Positions 6,514 to 44,381 of a stretch of 44,381 nt of DNA are shown in pieces. The first letter of the stretch is position 1. Each line of letters opens with the position of its first letter. Source of the stretch: Akkermansia muciniphila (lineage in GTDB: Bacteria; Verrucomicrobiota; Verrucomicrobiia; Verrucomicrobiales; Akkermansiaceae); the NCBI GenBank assembly GCA_945890645.1, contig CAMDCV010000034.1, positions 1 through 44,381 of the forward strand. Reading direction: 5' to 3'. A program made the translations under genes and the position numbers. Under the pieces are notes generated by a model. That model searched no databases and was not told the DNA's origin. It saw only the letters and a list, made by a program, of their open reading frames with translations.

Positions 6514-6933
6514 ATGCCAGAAGAATCACCAGAAGCACTCGAACGAATCGCGACAGAGATCGCGCTGGCGGAGCAAAGTAACGCCCCCGTGAATCGTGCT
6601 CTGAACTGGTATTTGGCGTTGGTGTGCTTTATGCCTACAATCATGTGCATTGCGTTAGCGCTCCTATCCTCGATTTTAATTCGTATGTCGTGGTTTGCAC
6701 GTTTTCAGATCGATGGTGACTGGGTGGCACTGGGGTATGTGAGCTTCATCGGCCTATCGACTTTCATACTAGGGTTCGTTCATTCACGGATCTACGATGC
6801 ATTGCATCCTCAAGAAACTCCTAAGCGTGGTGGTAAGATCTGGTGGCACGCGGTCAAATTTTTCTTTTTGCAACTACTGTTGATTCCTTTCACGATTACC
6901 ATACTTGTAACGGTTCTTTCTTTGTTATTCTGA
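6514..6933 (+). CDS. small membrane protein, paralogue 2 of 3 (139 aa)
   Basis: Function unknown; the closest relative in the window is the preceding gene. It has the same acidic N-terminus (MPEESPEALERIATEIALA), the QSNAP-NRAL-WYL motif and three probable membrane helices. It contains SWFARFQID after helix 1, FILGFVHSRIYDALHP after helix 2, and a third helix preceded by KFFFLQ. The identical length and conserved ordering of motifs indicate tandem duplication followed by divergence. There is a 54-base gap from paralogue 1 and a 40-base gap to the next, larger membrane protein. No cysteine pairs, histidine clusters or nucleotide-binding motifs suggest a reaction. Confidence 0.65.
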   Translation: MPEESPEALERIATEIALAEQSNAPVNRALNWYLALVCFMPTIMCIALALLSSILIRMSWFARFQIDGDWVALGYVSFIGLSTFILGFVHSRIYDALHPQETPKRGGKIWWHAVKFFFLQLLLIPFTITILVTVLSLLF

Positions 6934-6973
6934 ATTTATTACCAGTTAGTTTCCAACTACTCTACTGATTTCC

Positions 6974-7489
6974 ATGACGCAAACGATACATGAATACATG
7001 TGGGGCATCCTTCTTCTTTCTGGTGCCATCCTATCGGTGGGAGCTCTGATCTTTACGATCATTTTCACATGGGTCCGACGCCCCCGAGGCTATCAATTAT
7101 TGCGATACAGCCTTACTACTGTGGGATTTTCCTTGAGCACATGGATGATTTTCGTGTGGATTTTCATCAATACATTTATGACTTATTTCATGGATGTCGA
7201 CCGTCTTCGTAATATATGGATCGGTATCGGCGTTTTTTTGATTCCCATGATTTTGGGCATGCTAGCGGCGATCGGCCCGCGATTTGCCTTCGTGATGGGT
7301 GCGGGGAGAATTGTCGTGTATGTTTTGACCCCGATTGCGATTACATGGCTCCGCCTCACAAAGGGATTCTCCAGTTCGAACCAAGAAGAAACCTTTTGGT
7401 TGATTTCATATGCAATCGTAGCAGCCCTCTGGTGGGAAGTTTTGATTCACTGGGATCGCAAGTTGCAAAACATCGCACTCGCCCATTGA
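6974..7489 (+). CDS. multi-pass membrane protein (171 aa), unknown function
   Basis: Not recognised. The 171-residue product has four or five hydrophobic helices (about residues 9-33, 45-70, 80-100, 103-125 and 143-160). A basic loop (RRPRGYQLLRY) follows the first helix and a basic tail (HWDRKLQNIALAH) ends the protein. It is not an obvious copy of its 139-residue neighbours: it lacks their acidic N-terminus and VHSRI motif. It is nevertheless embedded between paralogues 2 and 3 on the same strand, so it probably belongs to the same functional group. No signal peptide and no catalytic motif can be seen. Confidence 0.6.
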   Translation: MTQTIHEYMWGILLLSGAILSVGALIFTIIFTWVRRPRGYQLLRYSLTTVGFSLSTWMIFVWIFINTFMTYFMDVDRLRNIWIGIGVFLIPMILGMLAAIGPRFAFVMGAGRIVVYVLTPIAITWLRLTKGFSSSNQEETFWLISYAIVAALWWEVLIHWDRKLQNIALAH

Positions 7490-7537
7490 AATAAAACCTC
7501 ACAAATCAAGAGACTCCCACACGAACTCGCCCGAGAT

Positions 7538-7957
7538 ATGATTCCGAAACCATATAAATCTCTGGAAGATCAACTATCCACTCAAGCAGTCACGGAATAC
7601 AGCCCCCCGAATCATTCGTCTTTGCGTTTGTATCTATGGATACTCCGTTTAATGCCTACCATGTTGCTTTGCGGCATGGTAATGGTGACTCTATTACTCG
7701 AACGCGCTTCATGGTTTTCTCGCGGTAACATCAGTGATGAAACCATCTTGGCCTACTGTTTGATTTTTGCCGCTCTAGCCACTTGGGTTTTTGGGTTCCT
7801 ATTAACTTACTTAAGTGATTATGCTGATGGAAACTTCAACCCACGTCATTGGGTGAGCTACTTACTCCGCGCTACACTTTTTTTCTTATTACAAGTTTTT
7901 ATCGCCCCGTTTTTCACAGTCATAATTATTTCTCTCCTGTATTCGCTTAATATCTGA
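7538..7957 (+). CDS. small membrane protein, paralogue 3 of 3 (139 aa)
   Basis: Again exactly 139 residues, but more diverged. The N-terminus (MIPKPYKSLEDQL) is no longer the MPEE type. The landmarks remain: a YLWILRLMPTM motif at the first helix, RASWFSR after it, a second helix with WVFGF followed by LSDYADG where the others have HSRI-DAL, and a third helix preceded by LFFLLQ and a conserved APFF/IPFT turn. The shared length and landmarks are my reason for calling it a paralogue. It is the last gene of the plus-strand group starting at the phosphatase, and it converges on the Hsp70 gene with a palindrome between. Confidence 0.6.
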   Translation: MIPKPYKSLEDQLSTQAVTEYSPPNHSSLRLYLWILRLMPTMLLCGMVMVTLLLERASWFSRGNISDETILAYCLIFAALATWVFGFLLTYLSDYADGNFNPRHWVSYLLRATLFFLLQVFIAPFFTVIIISLLYSLNI

Positions 7958-7975
7958 CCCACCGACTCGCTGCCG

Positions 7976-7989
7976 ATGTGAATTCACAT
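7976..7989. repeat. 14-base perfect palindrome between convergent genes
   Basis: ATGTGAATTCACAT lies between the ends of paralogue 3 and the Hsp70 gene, which converge. It is self-complementary over its whole length. There is no T run on either side, so it is not a clear terminator. It could bind a dimeric regulator, but the position between two 3' ends argues against that. Confidence 0.3.
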
Positions 7990-7998
7990 AGGAGCGAT

Positions 7999-9756
7999 CT
8001 AGTTCATCAACTGCTGCTCGATCGCGCGCTCCATTGCTTGCTCGACGATTTTTGCCGCTAGGGCTTCGGTGGCTTGATCAAGCTTCTGCACCGCTTGCTT
8101 CAGCACACGTGCTTCGGTTTGCAACAACGCGGCTTTCACCGCTGCGACCGATGCATCAATCGACTGCCGCTCCTCCGCACTGAGCCACTCATGACCGATC
8201 GCCAGCGCGGCCTCCACGGCGGGCAATAATTCCTCCGCCTTGAGCTTGGCCTCGGTCCACACACGCTCGGCCATGTCACTGAAAGCGTGCTCCACGGACT
8301 CGCTTACCATTTGCTCGACCTTTGCATCGCTTACATCGACGGCAGAATGCTCGATCACTAATACTTGATCGATCCCCGTCGCAACATCGCGAGCAAGCAC
8401 TTCGAGAATGCCATTTTCATCCAAACGAAATTGCACCCCGATACGCGCCTGACCTTTCGGGGCTGGAGCGAAGGGCACATCGACCTGACCCAACTCCCAA
8501 TTATCACGCGCCATTTCTCGCTCTCCTTGCAAGACGCGGATGCGCATTGCCTTTTGTCCAGCAACGGCATTGGTGAACATTTCGCCAGCCTTGCAGGGAA
8601 TCGTAGTATTGCGTGGGATCAACACATTCATCAATCCACCCAATGTCTCAATACCGAGACTGAGCGGCGTGATATCTAACAACACCATCTGCTTCATCGC
8701 GCCGCTGAGCATGCCCGCCTGAATCGTCGCACCGAGTGCGATTGCTTCATCCGGATGCTGAGAAACATCAGCCACTTTTCCAAAACATGCCTCCACCGCC
8801 GCGCGCACAGCTGGGATGCGAGTGCTGCCGCCCACCAAAACCACGGCATCCACTTCGTTAGGCAAAAGCCGAGCATCATTCAAGGCTTTGTGGCAACAAG
8901 CAATCGTGCGCGCAATCCAAGGCTGCATCCACTCGTTCCACTGCGCTTGCGTCAACAAGGCAGAAAAACTTTTTTCCCTTTCGTAAAAAGGCAGCACGAA
9001 GGTTTCATCGTCTCGCTGCGACAGCGAGCACTTCACTCGCTCTGCTTCCATCAGCCAACGACTCCGCTCTTGCTGGTTGAGTTGCTCTAGCTCTATGCCG
9101 GCGCGACGTGCCATCGCAGAGGCCATTGTGCGATCAAGATCATCGCCACCCAGCTGTGTATCACCGTGAGTCGCTAGCACTTGGAAGACCCCTTCCTGCA
9201 TCTCTAAAATCGATAAATCAAAGGTACCGCCGCCAAGATCATACACTGCCACTCGTGAACGATCACCGAGCTGATCGAGACCATAGCTCAGCGCTGCGGC
9301 GGTGGGTTCATTGATGATGCGCACGACTTCCAAGCCTGCCATTTCACCGGCACGTTTCGTCGCCTGACGTTGACCATCATGGAAATACGCGGGCACGGTG
9401 ATTACGGCCTTGTGCACCGCATGACCGAGCCGCCACTCCGCCACACGTTTGAGTTCTCCGAGAATCAATGCACTGATTTCCTCAGCGGATTTCCCTAACA
9501 AATTTTCCCGATCTGCTGGGTCAAGATCGCGTCCCACCAATCGCTTCACACTCGTGATCACGCGTCCGCCATCGAGCGCACGACGACGCAAGGCCTTACG
9601 CCCGATCTCCACCATACCATCTTCATTAAGCCAGACGGCACTGGGCATGATGCGTTTCCCCTCTTCATCCGCGAGTAGGATGGGAAAACCAGAATCCACC
9701 ACACCGATGGCCGAGTTGGTGGTGCCTAGGTCGATGCCTACGATGATGTCGTTCAT
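7999..9756 (-). CDS. Hsp70-family chaperone (DnaK/HscA-like)
   Basis: 585 residues, shorter than typical DnaK (about 640). The ATPase domain (about 1-370) carries the family signatures: GIDLGTTNSAIG at 6-17, VYDLGGGTFDLS in the middle and VVLVGGSTRIPAVRAA before residue 330. The substrate-binding domain follows (LLDITPLSLGIETLGG), then a helical lid that is short and ends IEQQLMN without the acidic EEVD-like or Gly-rich DnaK tail. It is probably a secondary, specialised Hsp70 and not the housekeeping DnaK, since no grpE or dnaJ is adjacent. The gene lies 7 bases after the PtsN-like gene on the same strand and is probably co-transcribed with it. Confidence 0.88.
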   Translation of the reverse strand: MNDIIVGIDLGTTNSAIGVVDSGFPILLADEEGKRIMPSAVWLNEDGMVEIGRKALRRRALDGGRVITSVKRLVGRDLDPADRENLLGKSAEEISALILGELKRVAEWRLGHAVHKAVITVPAYFHDGQRQATKRAGEMAGLEVVRIINEPTAAALSYGLDQLGDRSRVAVYDLGGGTFDLSILEMQEGVFQVLATHGDTQLGGDDLDRTMASAMARRAGIELEQLNQQERSRWLMEAERVKCSLSQRDDETFVLPFYEREKSFSALLTQAQWNEWMQPWIARTIACCHKALNDARLLPNEVDAVVLVGGSTRIPAVRAAVEACFGKVADVSQHPDEAIALGATIQAGMLSGAMKQMVLLDITPLSLGIETLGGLMNVLIPRNTTIPCKAGEMFTNAVAGQKAMRIRVLQGEREMARDNWELGQVDVPFAPAPKGQARIGVQFRLDENGILEVLARDVATGIDQVLVIEHSAVDVSDAKVEQMVSESVEHAFSDMAERVWTEAKLKAEELLPAVEAALAIGHEWLSAEERQSIDASVAAVKAALLQTEARVLKQAVQKLDQATEALAAKIVEQAMERAIEQQLMN

Positions 9757-39027: not shown

Positions 39028-39705
39028 TTACGCAGCAGCCTTGGCCCTGCTGCGGCGGATCAACAGGCCGCCCGCACCCAGCGCGAGCAGGCCGAGGCTG
39101 GAGGGCTCAGGCACGGCACCCCATTCGGTTTGCGCGCCGGGGATCGAGGCAAAGGCAGGCCGCGTCGTGCTCGCGTCATCAAAGATCAGGCGGGAGAGTT
39201 CCACCGTGTGGTCCGTCGCGCTGGTATTGAACGCGTTCACTTGCAACCAGCCCGCGGTAGGAGAACCACCGTTGATCCCCGGATCTGAGAAGGTAATGGG
39301 ATTCAGGTACGAGATGTCACGCGGCGAAAACCCCACAGAACGGGTCACCCCAACGCCGTATGGCGCAAAACCTGCTTTCACCACGTACGTCGTTGTTGAA
39401 TTCCACGCAGACACCAACTCACTACCCACAATATTAAATAAGTCTCGAATCCCCACCCAAACCGCTCTATCCCGGATTTGCGCGGACCCGAATTCCGGCG
39501 CCCCGAACACCAGATCCGCAATCCCGTCCCCCGTCAGGTCCGCGTTGAGCTGGTTGCCCCCGGTCGAGGAAAGCTTATTCCCCGTGAGGGTGATCTGCAC
39601 GGTGGCAGCCTGCGAGCTGGCGGTGGTGGCCGCGAGGGCCATGGCTCCCGGTAGCCACTTGGCTGCGGAACGATCGATCTTGGTCTGTTTTGTTTTCGTT
39701 TTCAT
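39028..39705 (-). CDS. PEP-CTERM-anchored secreted protein
   Basis: 225 residues. An N-terminal signal (MKTKTKQTKIDRSAAKW ... ALAATTASSQAA) is followed by a beta-rich domain of about 165 residues with DLTGDGIADLVFGAP, which resembles an FG-GAP/EF-hand-like calcium loop. The C-terminus is a PEP-CTERM sorting signal: VPEPSSLGLLALGAGGLL followed by the basic RRSRAKAAA. Such proteins are cut by an exosortase and held at the surface of exopolysaccharide-producing bacteria. No exosortase gene is in the window. The gene lies next to a reverse-transcriptase remnant on the same strand, whose open frame overlaps its first 130 bases. Confidence 0.85.
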   Translation of the reverse strand: MKTKTKQTKIDRSAAKWLPGAMALAATTASSQAATVQITLTGNKLSSTGGNQLNADLTGDGIADLVFGAPEFGSAQIRDRAVWVGIRDLFNIVGSELVSAWNSTTTYVVKAGFAPYGVGVTRSVGFSPRDISYLNPITFSDPGINGGSPTAGWLQVNAFNTSATDHTVELSRLIFDDASTTRPAFASIPGAQTEWGAVPEPSSLGLLALGAGGLLIRRSRAKAAA

Positions 39706-39852
39706 CTTTTCTATTATTTGTGTTTAGGGCTCCCCGCCGCCCAGATGGCGATGGGTGAGAGGATACAGACGGATCATCGCTCAGGCGCGGCGTGGGGTGC
39801 CCCGGGGGCCGGGCCTGCGGGGCAGGGGCGGCTGGGTCGGACCGGTCAGTGA

Positions 39853-40321
39853 GGCTGCGGAGCCACCGTGACCAATGCGTTTCATATCTCCCGATGCGCT
39901 CTTGCGAGGCACCTTGCTCATAAAGCCGGGCGATTTTCTCTGTCTTGCGGGCGAGGCTCACCGCGCTGGGCACCAGGGGCGCACCAGGTTGGAAGTCCAC
40001 GCCCAGAAAGTCGAAGCCACGCGTCACGCGGCCGATGAAGGTTTTATCCGGGTGCTGCGCGAGCCCGAGGCGGGCGAGCACTTGGTTCATGACGCGCACG
40101 GCACGGCGGAGGTGCCAGCGGCTGCGCGCAAGGATCACCCAGTCATCCATGATTTTCCACGTGTGCCAATTCCAGCGGAAGTGCCACACGGGATGGTTGG
40201 GATGGGCAGTGTGCCGGGCCTGGCACAGCCAGCGGTATGCGCTCTCCAGACGCCCGGCCCACGACACGGCTACCGCCGTGCCTGCGGCGGCGTTGGCTGG
40301 AAGTGGGTGGCAGCAGGTCAT
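39853..40321 (-). pseudogene. reverse transcriptase remnant with internal deletion
   Basis: The frame contains the catalytic YxDD-type box as IMDDWVILARSRWHLRRAV (Asp66-Asp67 of the open frame), then VMNQVLARLGLAQHPDKTFIGRVTRGFDFLG, the conserved late palm and thumb of bacterial reverse transcriptases, and a C-terminal helix (RLYEQGASQERIGRYETHWSRWLRSL). Upstream is RLESAYRWLCQARHTAHPNHPVW, similar to the N-terminus of one group of RNA-directed DNA polymerases. Between them, the first half of the palm (about 130-150 residues) is missing, in frame. After about 39853 the frame runs on as low-complexity sequence into the PEP-CTERM gene, so the true stop is lost. The class is not certain, and no intron RNA, retron or template-variable repeat was seen. 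Confidence 0.7.
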
Positions 40322-40338
40322 GGCGGAAAGGTGGTGGC

Positions 40339-43287
40339 TCAAGCAAGTTGCGCGACGAACTCGGCGCCACTGCGGACGCGGTGGAGGGTGGGATCGATGA
40401 CGGCGCGCATGGCAGCGAGTTTCTCGGGCACTCCGAGGAAGGCGGCGAGCGGCGGCAGGGCCTCGTCCGGGTGGTGGACGAGGTCCGCGTAGGACACGCT
40501 CATGGCCGGGATGCCGCGGCCGGTGAGCCAGGTCTTGGCGTGGCGGACTTGCTGGCGGTAAGCCTTGGCGATGTCCGCGCCGGGCCGGGTGGGCTTGCCG
40601 AGGCGGGCGAGCATGCTGTCCTGGCTATCCAGGATTTCCTCCATCTCGCGCTCCATGAAGAGCACGCGGTAGTGGAAAGTGTTCAGTTTCGAGTTTTCAG
40701 TTTTCAGTTGAAGAGGGAGGGCGGCGAGGAGGGGGGCGACGACTTTGAGCGAGTGGCCGCGGGCGTCGGCGAGCCAGGATTTGTCGGGACTGCTGAGCAG
40801 GCCGGCGACTTTGTCGTGCTCGTAGTAGCCTTTTTCATTGGAGGCGTCCGCCGCGCGGCGGCCGTCGGTGAAGGCGGGCAGGCCGGCGGCTTCGAGCAGC
40901 TGCATCATCAGCGAGGTGCCGGAGCGCGGTAGGCCGGAGACGAGGGTGATGAGCTCTTCCGGAGCCACGCCGGCGAGGGTTTCCGGGCGCGGCTGGAGCT
41001 CGGGCATGGGGCGGTTTTCCGGGTCATCGCCACCGTGCAGCGGGCGGGCGCTGAGCTGCTGGAGTTCGGCGAACTTGGAATTCCGCAGCGTGGCGAGTTG
41101 CTGGCGGGAATGGCGCAGCCGCAGCGCGTATTCGCTCTGGCCCAGGGCATCGTGCTCGAAGCGGGCGATCTGGCCGAGCATCCGGAAACCGGCGGCGAAC
41201 AGGGGGGCCATGGTGACGGAGGTGAGGAAGGCATCCTTGGCCGCCGCCAGTTCGCCGAGGCGGTAGTGGGCGAGGCCGAGCAGGTAGTGGCCCTTCGGCT
41301 GGAAGTAGAGCAGCCCGAGCGAAATGCGGGCGTGCTCGATGGCTCCCTTGAAATCGCGCGCGGCCAGCGCGGCGCGGGCCATGCCGAGCAGCGGGCCGGG
41401 CGCTTCCGCATCGATGGCGAGCGCCTCCTCGAAGGCGGCGCGGGATTCATCCCAGCGCTGGAGCCGCTGCAGCACCTCGCCGCGCAGGGTGAGCGCGTTG
41501 CGGCGTGCGCCGAAGTCGCTGTCGAGCTGTTCGAGCTTGGCGAGGGCGTCCTCGTAGCGTTTTTCCGCCATATCGGCGCTGGCCTCCATGTGACGCAGGG
41601 CGAAGAGGTTCGGGCGGGACTTGGCGAGCAACTCGCGGCGCTCGCGGCCGAATTTTTCCTTTTCCTTGTCGCTCATCGCCTCGATGCGCTCCTTCTCCGC
41701 CTGCTGGGCTTCCTCGGTGTCGAGCTTGAGTTCCTTAAGGGTGGCGATGGCCTCGCTGGCTTCCTGCATGCGGCGCTCGCAGACGGTGGTGACCAGCGCG
41801 CGCAGCTCGGTGCTGCGGCCTTGGCTCTGGTAGCAGGTGGCGAGCTTGAAACCGAAGCGGTGCTCCATCGGCCACGTCCGGTAGAGGCGCTCGAGGATGG
41901 TCACGGCCTCGGCGTAGTAGCCGCCGTCGATCCACGCTTGGGCGAGGTTGTAGTCGAGCTCGCGCACGGTTTGCTCGATGGCCTTGGATTGGTCGGCATC
42001 CGGCTCGTCGATGTAGCCGAGGGCGACGAGCTGCTGGAGGGCGGCCTTGGAATCGGCGGCGGAGATCTGCTTGTCCGGCGGGTGCATGCCGTGATCGCCG
42101 GGGACGGCGTCCCAGCTGGGGATGCGGGCGATTTCCACGGGCGGGTTTTCGTAGATGTCGATGAGCACCTTGCCGTCCATGTCCTCGCCGACTGGCAGGC
42201 CGAAGAGGTGGAGCAGGGTCGGGCAGATATCGATCAGGCTGGCGCCGTACACGCGCTCGTCCTGGCGGATGCCGGGGCCCTTGGCGGCGAAGATGCCGAA
42301 CTGGCGGTGCTCGGCAGCCGGGCCGGCGGGCTCGCGCGGGATGTTGCTCAGGCGCAGGTCGTCCGGGTGGAAGCCGTGGTCGGACATGAGGATCACGGTG
42401 GCGTCCTCACCCGCGAGAGCGAGCAGGGTGCCGAGCATCGCATCGTGATAGAGGTAGCCCATTTCCACGCAGTGGTGGAAGACTTGGTAGTCCCAGTCGT
42501 TCACCTGCGGCCGCTGCGGCGGGTGATATTTCATGAACGCGTGGCCGAAGTGGTCGATGGCGTCGTAATAGACGCACATCAGGTCCCAGGGCTCGTTCTG
42601 GATCAGGGCGGTGGCGGCGGAGTGGACGCTGGTGCAGTCCGCGATGATCTTGGAGAGCGACTGGATGCGCGGGTCCTTTTCCGCCTTGTCGAGGTCCTCG
42701 CGGGACATGCCGTCGAGGCCGGGCAGGAAAGGACGGAGGTCGTTCTCGTTCAGCTCCGCGGGATGGAAGCGGAGGTCCTTGAGGTGGCGGACGAGGCGCT
42801 CCGGATGGATGGTTTCCGGCTTGAGCGGCCATTTGTCGGGCTCGTAGCTGCCGCCGTGGGTTTTCTGGTAGTCGTCGGAAACCATCACGCCGTGGCTGAG
42901 CGGCTCGGCGGGGTTGGACGGCCACCAGCCGACGGTGATGGTGTTTTTCCCCTGCTGGTTGAGGATATTCCAGATGGCCTTGGTCTTGCGCGAGAGATTG
43001 GTGATCGGGCGGATGCCGCCGGTGACCGGGTCCGGCTCGGAGAAGCCGAGGATACCATGCTTGTACGGGCGCTTGCCGGTGGCGATGGAGGTCCAGAGCG
43101 TGGGGCTGAGCGCGGGCTGGAGGGTGGTGATGTTGCCCATCACGCCTTTTTCAAGAAAGCGCGCAAGGTGGGGCATTTTGCCGGCGTCGAGCAGCGGGTG
43201 GATGACCTTCCAGTCCGCGGCGTCCCAGCCGATGAGCAGCACTTTGCGGGAAGGGGACGGCGGGGCGGCGGCGGGTGGGAGTGACAT
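40339..43287 (-). CDS. phosphodiesterase-TPR-sulfotransferase fusion protein
   Basis: 982 residues in three parts. Residues about 14-430 form an alkaline-phosphatase-superfamily phosphodiesterase: VLLIGWDAADW with metal Asp22, SPTLWTSIATGKRPYKHGI with the probable Thr63 nucleophile, YYDAIDHFGHAF, and ILMSDHGFHPDD. Residues about 450-730 are helical repeats of TPR type (LDYNLAQAWIDGGYYAEAVTILERLY, AFEEALAIDAEAPGPLLGMARAALAAR). Residues about 775-982 are a sulfotransferase: ITLVSGLPRSGTSLMMQLLEAAG is the PAPS phosphate-binding loop. Some domain pairs occur separately, but the triple fusion is unusual. It is cytosolic by the absence of a signal peptide; substrates are unknown. The start at 43287 is in a region overlapped by the truncated upstream gene. 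Confidence 0.82.
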   Translation of the reverse strand: MSLPPAAAPPSPSRKVLLIGWDAADWKVIHPLLDAGKMPHLARFLEKGVMGNITTLQPALSPTLWTSIATGKRPYKHGILGFSEPDPVTGGIRPITNLSRKTKAIWNILNQQGKNTITVGWWPSNPAEPLSHGVMVSDDYQKTHGGSYEPDKWPLKPETIHPERLVRHLKDLRFHPAELNENDLRPFLPGLDGMSREDLDKAEKDPRIQSLSKIIADCTSVHSAATALIQNEPWDLMCVYYDAIDHFGHAFMKYHPPQRPQVNDWDYQVFHHCVEMGYLYHDAMLGTLLALAGEDATVILMSDHGFHPDDLRLSNIPREPAGPAAEHRQFGIFAAKGPGIRQDERVYGASLIDICPTLLHLFGLPVGEDMDGKVLIDIYENPPVEIARIPSWDAVPGDHGMHPPDKQISAADSKAALQQLVALGYIDEPDADQSKAIEQTVRELDYNLAQAWIDGGYYAEAVTILERLYRTWPMEHRFGFKLATCYQSQGRSTELRALVTTVCERRMQEASEAIATLKELKLDTEEAQQAEKERIEAMSDKEKEKFGRERRELLAKSRPNLFALRHMEASADMAEKRYEDALAKLEQLDSDFGARRNALTLRGEVLQRLQRWDESRAAFEEALAIDAEAPGPLLGMARAALAARDFKGAIEHARISLGLLYFQPKGHYLLGLAHYRLGELAAAKDAFLTSVTMAPLFAAGFRMLGQIARFEHDALGQSEYALRLRHSRQQLATLRNSKFAELQQLSARPLHGGDDPENRPMPELQPRPETLAGVAPEELITLVSGLPRSGTSLMMQLLEAAGLPAFTDGRRAADASNEKGYYEHDKVAGLLSSPDKSWLADARGHSLKVVAPLLAALPLQLKTENSKLNTFHYRVLFMEREMEEILDSQDSMLARLGKPTRPGADIAKAYRQQVRHAKTWLTGRGIPAMSVSYADLVHHPDEALPPLAAFLGVPEKLAAMRAVIDPTLHRVRSGAEFVAQLA
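40683..40709. repeat. AT-rich micro-repeat (TTTTCAG)n inside the sulfotransferase coding region
   Basis: CAGTTTCGAGTTTTCAG is followed by TTTTCAGTTG: the unit GTTTTCA is repeated in a gene that is otherwise very rich in G+C. On the coding strand it reads LKTENSKLNTF, unlike the surrounding protein. It may be an inserted or slippage-made repeat that happens to stay in frame. Confidence 0.5.
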
Positions 43288-44381
43288 GGCTGGCTGCTAG
43301 GAATTTGCTTTTGGGGTGAAGGCCGTTGAAAGAGCCGGTGGCCGGACCGGAGGCGGGGAAAAGGGGGTTGGTAGATCGTGTCGAAACCACCATTCGGTAT
43401 GCGCACCGCCTCGAATTCTGCAGCAGGAGTCGTCACACTGACGGGAAGTGATGCGTTGCCCTCTTGACCCAGGGCATTGCGCATTTTCACCGTGTAGGTG
43501 TAGCTCGTGCCGGGCTCCAGACTTGTGTCCGTGTAGACAGGATTGCTTGTCCATCCGCTGTCAGCTCCTCCCGGATTGCCCGATGTCTCATCGAAGAAGT
43601 ATTCGATCGGCTCAAAGTCGCCGCGGCCCGGGGTCGCCTTCATGACGATATCCAGAGTGCCACTGATCGAGGGCGGCGAGGCAAACGTTGCCGGATCCGG
43701 GCCGGGGACGGCTACCTTCTCCTTGAGATTTGTCAGGTTCACGATGGCGCTCACCATGCCCGGCTTGTGGCCTTCCTCTTCATAGTCTTTGGCGTTAAGC
43801 CGTTTGATGATTTCCGGGCGGTACAGCGTATAGAGGATGTCCTTGAGCTCCTCGCGTTGTTTGGAATCCATTTTTTCCATAACGGTGGTAAATCCGCCTG
43901 GATCTGCCACGATGCTGACGATGTCAGTCGATCTCAAGTCGCTGAATCGAAGTTGCAGGGCAGTGGCGAGTGCAGGGGCAAGGGTTGGATCGTTCTGCAG
44001 GCAAAGCTTCAGGGTTTCTATGACGTTCCAAGCACTCACGCCGAGATCACTGCTCTTGATCTTGCCCGTGTCCACGCCTTTACGCAGCGCGGCAAGAATG
44101 AGTTTGCCCGCGTCGCTCTCGGGCTTCTTTTTCTGCACCACCCCGTTGAGGTGCTGCATCATCGTCTCGCGGGGCATGGCGTGGTATTCGCTGGTCGCCA
44201 TGTTCAGGAGTGTAGGTAGGATTTTGACGTAAAGGGCATCATCTTTCTCAAGTCCAGAGAGCGCCCTGAAGGCCGCCTCGCGCAGCCACCAGTCGGAGTG
44301 TTTGGTCCACGGCTCGATGAGCTTGTAGTTCTGCTGGATGTCCTTGGCCGGAGCGAACTTGAGTGCCAGCAGCGCACCGTC
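43140..44381 (-). CDS. HEAT-like/FN3 secreted-type protein, 5' end outside the window, 3' end disrupted
   Basis: Partial: the frame is open from the window's last base and reads DGALLALKFAP ... TKHSDWWLREAAFRALSGLEKDDALY, a HEAT-like helical repeat. After about 200 residues comes an FN3-like domain: SGTLDIVMKATPGRG, IEYFFDETSGNPGGADSGW, YTDTSLEPGTSYTYTVKMRNALGQEG. This set recalls large verrucomicrobial proteins such as DUF6288. The frame then has no natural stop: from about 43370 it turns proline/arginine-rich and runs 148 bases into the phosphodiesterase gene in another frame, to TGA at 43140. The true C-terminus is probably lost at about 43370. Low confidence in function. Confidence 0.6.
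   Translation of the reverse strand, partial: DGALLALKFAPAKDIQQNYKLIEPWTKHSDWWLREAAFRALSGLEKDDALYVKILPTLLNMATSEYHAMPRETMMQHLNGVVQKKKPESDAGKLILAALRKGVDTGKIKSSDLGVSAWNVIETLKLCLQNDPTLAPALATALQLRFSDLRSTDIVSIVADPGGFTTVMEKMDSKQREELKDILYTLYRPEIIKRLNAKDYEEEGHKPGMVSAIVNLTNLKEKVAVPGPDPATFASPPSISGTLDIVMKATPGRGDFEPIEYFFDETSGNPGGADSGWTSNPVYTDTSLEPGTSYTYTVKMRNALGQEGNASLPVSVTTPAAEFEAVRIPNGGFDTIYQPPFPRLRSGHRLFQRPSPQKQIPSSQPCHSHPPPPRRPLPAKCCSSAGTPRTGRSSTRCSTPAKCPTLRAFLKKA

Follow-up and report, generated by a model that had tools for sequence, protein, structure and literature searches.

The window, the whole 44,381-nucleotide stretch of Akkermansia muciniphila DNA that was analysed, encodes a three-part fusion enzyme on its minus strand. 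On the same strand lies a gene for an exported-type protein, hereafter the partner, with a reverse transcriptase remnant between the two. The features are as follows.

40339..43287, minus strand: fusion enzyme of 982 aa with an ATG start, joining alkaline phosphatase (AP)-superfamily, TPR and sulfotransferase (ST) parts (open reading frame, Pfam, full-length relatives, model pLDDT 89)
41998..43251, minus strand: AP-superfamily (NPP/PafA-like) phosphoesterase domain, residues ~13-430 (PF01663, PafA/NPP fold, invariant ligands)
41053..41991, minus strand: TPR or helical-repeat region, residues ~433-745 (TPR models, helices in the predicted structure)
40372..40956, minus strand: PAPS-type ST domain, residues ~778-972 (PF13469, profile match to SULT1A and TPST chains)
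40912..40938, minus strand: 5'-PSB loop SGLPRSGTS, residues 784-792 (from the sequence; R788, G790, T791 and S792 each 77/77)
40624..40650, minus strand: 3'-PB motif, R880 to S888 (aligned to the SULT1A1-type 3'-PB Arg and Ser; each 77/77)
39986..40162, within the open reading frame 39575-40342, minus strand: group II intron-type reverse transcriptase remnant between enzyme and partner (TIGR04416 positions 209-269 of 353)
39028..39705, minus strand: partner, an exported-type protein of 225 aa with a shared body domain and a PEP-CTERM tail (body HMM, PEP-CTERM match)

The original prediction had placed a phosphodiesterase, TPRs and a sulfotransferase in one 982-residue chain with both sites intact, and this description stands, as the catalytic positions are conserved in 77/77 full-length family members. 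Several Pfam TPR models match the enzyme, with the best stretches between residues 445 and 695. The AlphaFold2 model, made from a 77-row alignment, has a mean pLDDT of 89; it is alpha/beta to about residue 430, continues as helical repeats to about 745, and is alpha/beta again from about 778. The hydrophobicity of the sequence gives no sign of a signal peptide or transmembrane segment in the enzyme: its top 19-mer averages 1.55 overall and 0.78 within the first 60 windows of the scan. Across the family, the most hydrophobic 19-mer exceeds 1.9 in one of 77 enzymes and 1.6 in 22 of 77. Upstream, an open frame at 43140-44381 (minus strand) overlaps the enzyme start by 148 bases in a different frame, perhaps owing to a frameshift near its 3' end. 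It has no Pfam match at E <= 0.01.

The enzyme had appeared to be an odd single protein; instead, it belongs to a family conserved across several phyla. A scan of genome contigs located relatives encoded at 489 places, and the best 80 of these 489 were kept, making 77 loci. Gene calling, which followed a greedy longest-ORF rule, returned a full-length protein at 74 of the 77 loci. The exceptions are two partial matches (L022, L023) and L044, where a longer antisense ORF displaced an intact enzyme frame, and which lies outside the partner count. Besides the window protein and its paralogue, the full-length set (n=77) comprises 75 proteins, which come from 74 of the 77 loci. Removed before counting were the row for the window (L001), one with a weak AP match (L003), two partial ones (L022, L023) and L044. 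L002 is outside the locus count, L081 being the same place; L091 duplicates L034, and the two count as one, which gives 83 distinct loci. Alignment A2 leaves out L055|2, L050|0, L005|8 and L030|9. Family members are 40-91% identical to the window protein, and their database entries are labelled Verrucomicrobia, Planctomycetes, Nitrospirae, deltaproteobacteria and gammaproteobacteria, cyanobacteria, Bryobacteraceae, Actibacterium and Bacteroidetes, mostly as MAGs. The loci are not all independent, because several come from one MAG (L004, L007 and L008, for example). At L064 (7137-10826) the enzyme frame is 1229 aa long, with about 290 extra residues ahead of the AP domain; this may be an over-long ORF call.

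Two ways in which the fusion might mislead had been named beforehand, an assembly artefact and a domain that is inactive in all relatives, and both can be rejected. The same genome holds, on another contig, a full-length paralogue that is 83% identical to the 982-aa enzyme, and full-length relatives occur at many loci. The fusion is real and old. The AP and ST sites are both probably active, because the catalytic positions of the two domains are invariant in the 77 full-length members, which also disposes of a dead domain.

In the N-terminal part, PF01663 (Phosphodiest) matches residues 16-308 at E 2.2e-28 (Pfam). The six metal-binding positions of the AP superfamily, assigned by motif and profile alignment, are D22, D245, H249, D303, H304 and H327, each present in 77/77 full-length members. 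Structure comparison of the model matches the fold of this domain to PafA (Z 27.3, rmsd 3.4, 326 residues aligned) and to NPPs (Z ~26). When the profile is aligned to Xac NPP and phosphonoacetate hydrolase, S61 falls on the Thr that is the nucleophile of the NPP site, and F82 on the Asn of that site. Both S61 and F82 are found in 77/77 full-length members. The Thr and Asn of NPPs are thus absent, yet membership of the AP superfamily stands, because Ser serves as the nucleophile in other members. T66 was ruled out as the nucleophile, since the profile alignment places it at S61. A formylglycine sulfatase was also rejected. Such sulfatases carry the maturation motif C/S-x-P-x-R at the nucleophile; residues 61-65 here read SPTLW, with no Arg, so the motif is absent. 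The match to PF00884 barely clears its cut-off (25.5 against 25 bits). The putative Ser-type two-metal site speaks for phosphoester chemistry and against a sulfatase.

In the C-terminal part, Sulfotransfer_3 (PF13469) covers residues 783-806 of the enzyme barely above the cut-off (27.4 against 27 bits, Pfam), and the isolated domain scores 32.4 bits. When the ST profile was compared with PDB sequences, SULT1A chains came out first (best E 3.4e-6), with TPST1 at 1.7e-4 and TPST2 at ~1e-3; unrelated PDB chains begin at E 0.076. In the SULT rows listed, the 3'-PB Arg and Ser line up with R880 and S888. Among the matches listed from fold searches that were not confined to the ST domain there are AP and TPR folds and no SULT or TPST, an absence that carries no weight. 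Ten positions (R788, G790, T791, D808, R811, E823, K848, R880, S888, Q889) are each found in 77/77 full-length members. By eye, the position of the catalytic His in the SULT KTHLP-type motif is V850 in the enzyme (V in 60 and I in 17 of 77). A positive residue in the 5'-PSB, a Ser in the 3'-PB, and a His or Glu base between the motifs are listed as essential for sulfotransferases (PMC6637879). The enzyme has each of these: R788, S888 together with R880, and E823 as the putative base in between. E823 (or D808) would be the candidate catalytic base between the two motifs. An A-rich, repeat-like stretch at 40680-40710 (minus strand), coding for KTENSKLNT, enlarges a loop of the domain, and its length differs among close relatives. 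Its origin in a dispersed repeat was rejected, as the DNA pattern was found a single time in the window's genome when up to one mismatch was allowed.

The chief new finding lies beside the enzyme. When 735 neighbours within 8 kb were clustered, with the clusters judged by eye, one stood out, present in 44 loci; the next occurs in 7. With body HMMs, a partner was recognised near the enzyme in 54 of the 83 distinct loci, in 47 of them within 700 bp and in 53 on the same strand, upstream in 31 and downstream in 23. The search of relatives and their neighbours proposed in the original prediction yielded both a family in several phyla and a shared neighbour. At least two partners occur in 10 loci, the maximum for one enzyme being five (L030), followed by four in L075. 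Body-HMM matches make up 61 of the 346 genes within 1.5 kb of the enzyme and 9 of the 664 farther out (p 3e-21; L083 and the duplicate L091 excluded), a test that is valid for decay inside 8 kb only, because the two body HMMs were built from partners clustered within 8 kb. No partner was recognised in 29 of the 83 loci, which counts against the partner as the enzyme's substrate. Seven of the 29 have a flank under 300 bp; the other 22 are not truncated near a contig end, and among them there are nine (L024, L031, L036, L040, L043, L066, L071, L080, L084) with another leader-bearing or CTERM-type protein adjoining the enzyme.

The arrangement varies in gene order and in whether the enzyme is whole. 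L085 runs in the order 191-aa ST gene, 683-aa AP-TPR gene, partner, 907-aa fusion, two further partners; in L084 an AP-TPR gene (697 aa) is accompanied by a gene for a CTERM-type protein, two others and a 200-aa ST gene. Stand-alone STs of the same type lie near AP-superfamily genes in L082 and L083; at L082 (2143-8570) and L083 (3-10088) these are 200-aa STs with two AP-superfamily genes of ~650-680 aa nearby, and L087 and L089 contain similar-looking neighbour genes of ~270-280 aa. L093 counts against sulfation of the partner by the enzyme: its 788-aa frame (6677-9043) matches AP and TPR models and has partners nearby, with no ST match. The frame ends in residues that resemble an ST C-terminus, and a partial loss of the ST may have occurred. 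The window's genome has a second enzyme-partner pair at L081 (7757-11388, G000:C10), in which the partner lies 99 bp downstream and has a PEP-CTERM-type tail. The gap is 633 bp in the window, as against 99 bp in that paralogous pair, and contains the reverse transcriptase remnant. The latter matches TIGR04416 at E 4e-8, far under the cut-off, and is probably an old insertion outside the enzyme-partner system.

Partners are mostly 200-320 aa long and consist of a leader, a shared body domain and a variable tail, which may be PEP-CTERM, IPTL-like or missing. In most phyla the body has a D-x-[DN]-G-D-G loop followed by Y-G-W and W-A-Y-E-D motifs; the Verrucomicrobial branch is divergent. Pfam found PEP-CTERM (PF07589) tails in 26 of 60 partners scanned, IPTL-CTERM in 4 of 60 and FG-GAP in 2, and NCBIfam, with 27 scanned, returned CTERM-type families too. 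Apart from the tails and a few scattered weak matches, no body match was found at E <= 0.01 in Pfam (60 scanned) or NCBIfam (27 scanned), and no relative among PDB sequences at E <= 1; a partner model with pLDDT 73 gave no Foldseek match at E <= 0.001. The neighbouring PEP-CTERM gene, to which the original prediction had already drawn attention, bears this body: an HMM constructed without the window's partner matches it at E 1.2e-41. Its PEP-CTERM tail scores 24.4 bits (cut-off 20.7), and an exosortase is encoded in the same genome (G000:C24). The link to exopolysaccharide that had been proposed through this gene found no support: the conserved neighbour is an exported-protein body whatever its tail, and no other cluster occurs in more than 7 loci. 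In L029 (10910-13714), a 934-aa secreted-looking protein beside the enzyme combines the partner body with choice-of-anchor U and DUF11-type repeats.

Is the partner itself modified? The partner alignment contains no Tyr, Ser or Thr acceptor common to all partners. The Tyr of the WAYED motif is present in 93% of the 43 non-Verrucomicrobial partners, and among the 15 Verrucomicrobial partners no Tyr reaches 60%. Because a conserved acceptor Tyr is missing from the Verrucomicrobial partners, we do not class the enzyme as a tyrosylprotein sulfotransferase. A Tyr with two acidic neighbours occurs in 41 of 60 partners and is absent from the window's partner, which counts against the partner as acceptor. 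In that protein the leader shows weak hydrophobicity only (best 16-mer 0.96), and this too counts against its sulfation before export.

Whole genomes bear on the association as well. We examined 47 enzyme genomes, which stand for 46 of the 77 loci plus the window's genome (G000). The partner-body model A4 matches 35 of the 47; it misses G000, whose partner belongs to the divergent Verrucomicrobial branch. Where a genome has a single A4 match, that match lies 6-1537 bp from the enzyme in 13 of 17 cases. In the other four (G194, G201, G202, G207), three of them Verrucomicrobia, it appears to lie elsewhere. A strong enzyme match (E < 1e-90) occurs in nine of 194 genomes of the phylum. A4 is found in 7 of these nine, all adjoining the enzyme by coordinates, as against 15 of the 185 others (p 3e-6), so that the association is strong and not exclusive. 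The partner bodies in genomes with no strong enzyme match count against the partner as acceptor.

The genomes also speak to the sulfate donor. APS kinase is detected at E <= 0.001 in 47/47 enzyme genomes and in 12/14 controls, and over the cut-off in 44/47 and 6/14, respectively; it is weak in G226 and G236 (E ~5e-4) and partial in G200, and these three genomes count against the PAPS-dependent model. In two loci an adenylyl-sulfate kinase gene abuts the enzyme on the same strand, just after it in L070 and overlapping its end in L073, with TIGR00455 scores of 258 and 251 bits (cut-off 138.7). This adjacency argues for PAPS as the presumed donor of the enzyme.

We favour, at a probability of about 45%, a model in which a cytosolic PAPS-dependent enzyme with a built-in AP phosphoesterase sulfates the neighbouring surface protein before its export. 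The TPR region would hold the partner chain, and the C-terminal domain would transfer sulfate from PAPS onto it, with Arg788 in the 5'-PSB loop, Arg880 and Ser888 at the 3'-phosphate, and Glu823 or Asp808 as the base. The sulfated partner would then be exported and anchored by whichever tail it has. The N-terminal domain, with its two-metal site and Ser61 nucleophile, might clear the by-product PAP or act on a phosphoester of the same substrate; removal of one ester and addition of a sulfate by one enzyme is possible. The body or leader fits as the recognised part, because the tails vary, the body stays and there are several partners per enzyme. Multiple partners, as in L030 and L075, are expected if partners are substrates. 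In its widest form, the model describes a widespread and so far undescribed bacterial pathway, in which one cytosolic enzyme unites the ST with a TPR arm to hold the substrate and with a phosphoesterase of its own. Each such enzyme would have between one and five surface proteins dedicated to it, which are later anchored by exosortases or otherwise; we put this forward tentatively, as a reading that could well prove too broad.

There are several other ways to read the pairing. First, the enzyme may sulfate a cytosolic glycan, lipid or small molecule, and the partner may carry, bind or display the product rather than accept the sulfate. The lack of a common acceptor residue among partners favours this, as does the ST profile, which is closer to the small-molecule SULT chains (3.4e-6) than to TPSTs (1.7e-4); NPP/PafA-type AP domains, moreover, have small phosphoesters as substrates, nucleotides and lipids among them. 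The TPR region that separates the catalytic domains, and the presence of several partners per enzyme, are better suited to a protein substrate, and genes for glycans or lipids form no recurring cluster next to the enzyme (clusters judged by eye). We consider a non-protein acceptor unlikely, if well short of far-fetched. Second, and overlapping with either kind of acceptor, the AP domain may hydrolyse PAP formed as a by-product, or PAPS that is wasted, and thereby relieve product inhibition of the ST. The AP site is intact, its fold matches the phosphomonoesterase PafA (Z 27.3) and the NPPs (Z ~26) about equally well, and stand-alone STs near AP-superfamily genes (L082, L083) are consistent with such a role. 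The invariant F82 at the NPP Asn position stands against it, and activity on PAP is not to be assumed, because Phe replaces that Asn; this role seems to us improbable. Finally, that the pairing reflects mere co-regulation or the high number of PEP-CTERM-type genes around an enzyme with an unrelated household role, as an exosortase in 41 of the 47 enzyme genomes and the partnerless loci might suggest, is very improbable, given that the neighbours share a body domain beyond the tail, that some have no CTERM tail, and that the pairing survives order changes and splits and falls sharply with distance.

Sulfation of the partner before export would matter beyond this locus. To our knowledge, known bacterial protein sulfation is essentially that of RaxX. 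If the pairing can be taken at face value, sulfated surface proteins would be common among environmental bacteria, and the body domain of the partner, which matched no family model, would acquire a function. Even with a glycan or lipid acceptor, the pairing names an enzyme and the surface protein tied to its product. Overall, the pairing suggests an undescribed bacterial route to sulfate surface proteins or something tied to them. In line with the original prediction, which knew of no described system with this plan, we found no description of the fusion or of the enzyme-partner pairing in the open-access literature, which is weak evidence of absence.

Each component has known counterparts. 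The enzyme shares its fold (Z 26-27) and metal-ligand positions with the NPP family and PafA. It differs from NPPs in Ser61 for Thr and the invariant Phe82 for Asn, and from both NPPs and PafA in being fused to TPR and sulfotransferase parts and in having no signal peptide. With SULT1A and TPST sulfotransferases it shares the 5'-PSB and 3'-PB motifs; its base would be a Glu or Asp, in contrast to the SULT His. Many partners carry the tails of exosortase-sorted PEP-CTERM and IPTL-CTERM proteins, from which they are set apart by a body domain with no family model and by tails that are interchangeable. A further likeness is to RaxST and RaxX, where a PAPS-type sulfotransferase is encoded beside an exported substrate that it sulfates before secretion; RaxST sulfates the RaxX precursor, and the RaxX leader is removed before secretion (PMC6637879). 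Compared by description, RaxST likewise has an Arg, a Ser and an acidic base between them, and in that account it is presented without AP or TPR parts, unlike the fusion enzyme (PMC6637879). RaxX is described there as a 60-residue peptide with type I export and one modified Tyr (PMC6637879), whereas the partner is larger, has a leader and tails of several kinds, and lacks a Tyr common to all members. The parts are thus of known kinds, and it is their combination in one chain, and the pairing with the partner, that appear to be new.
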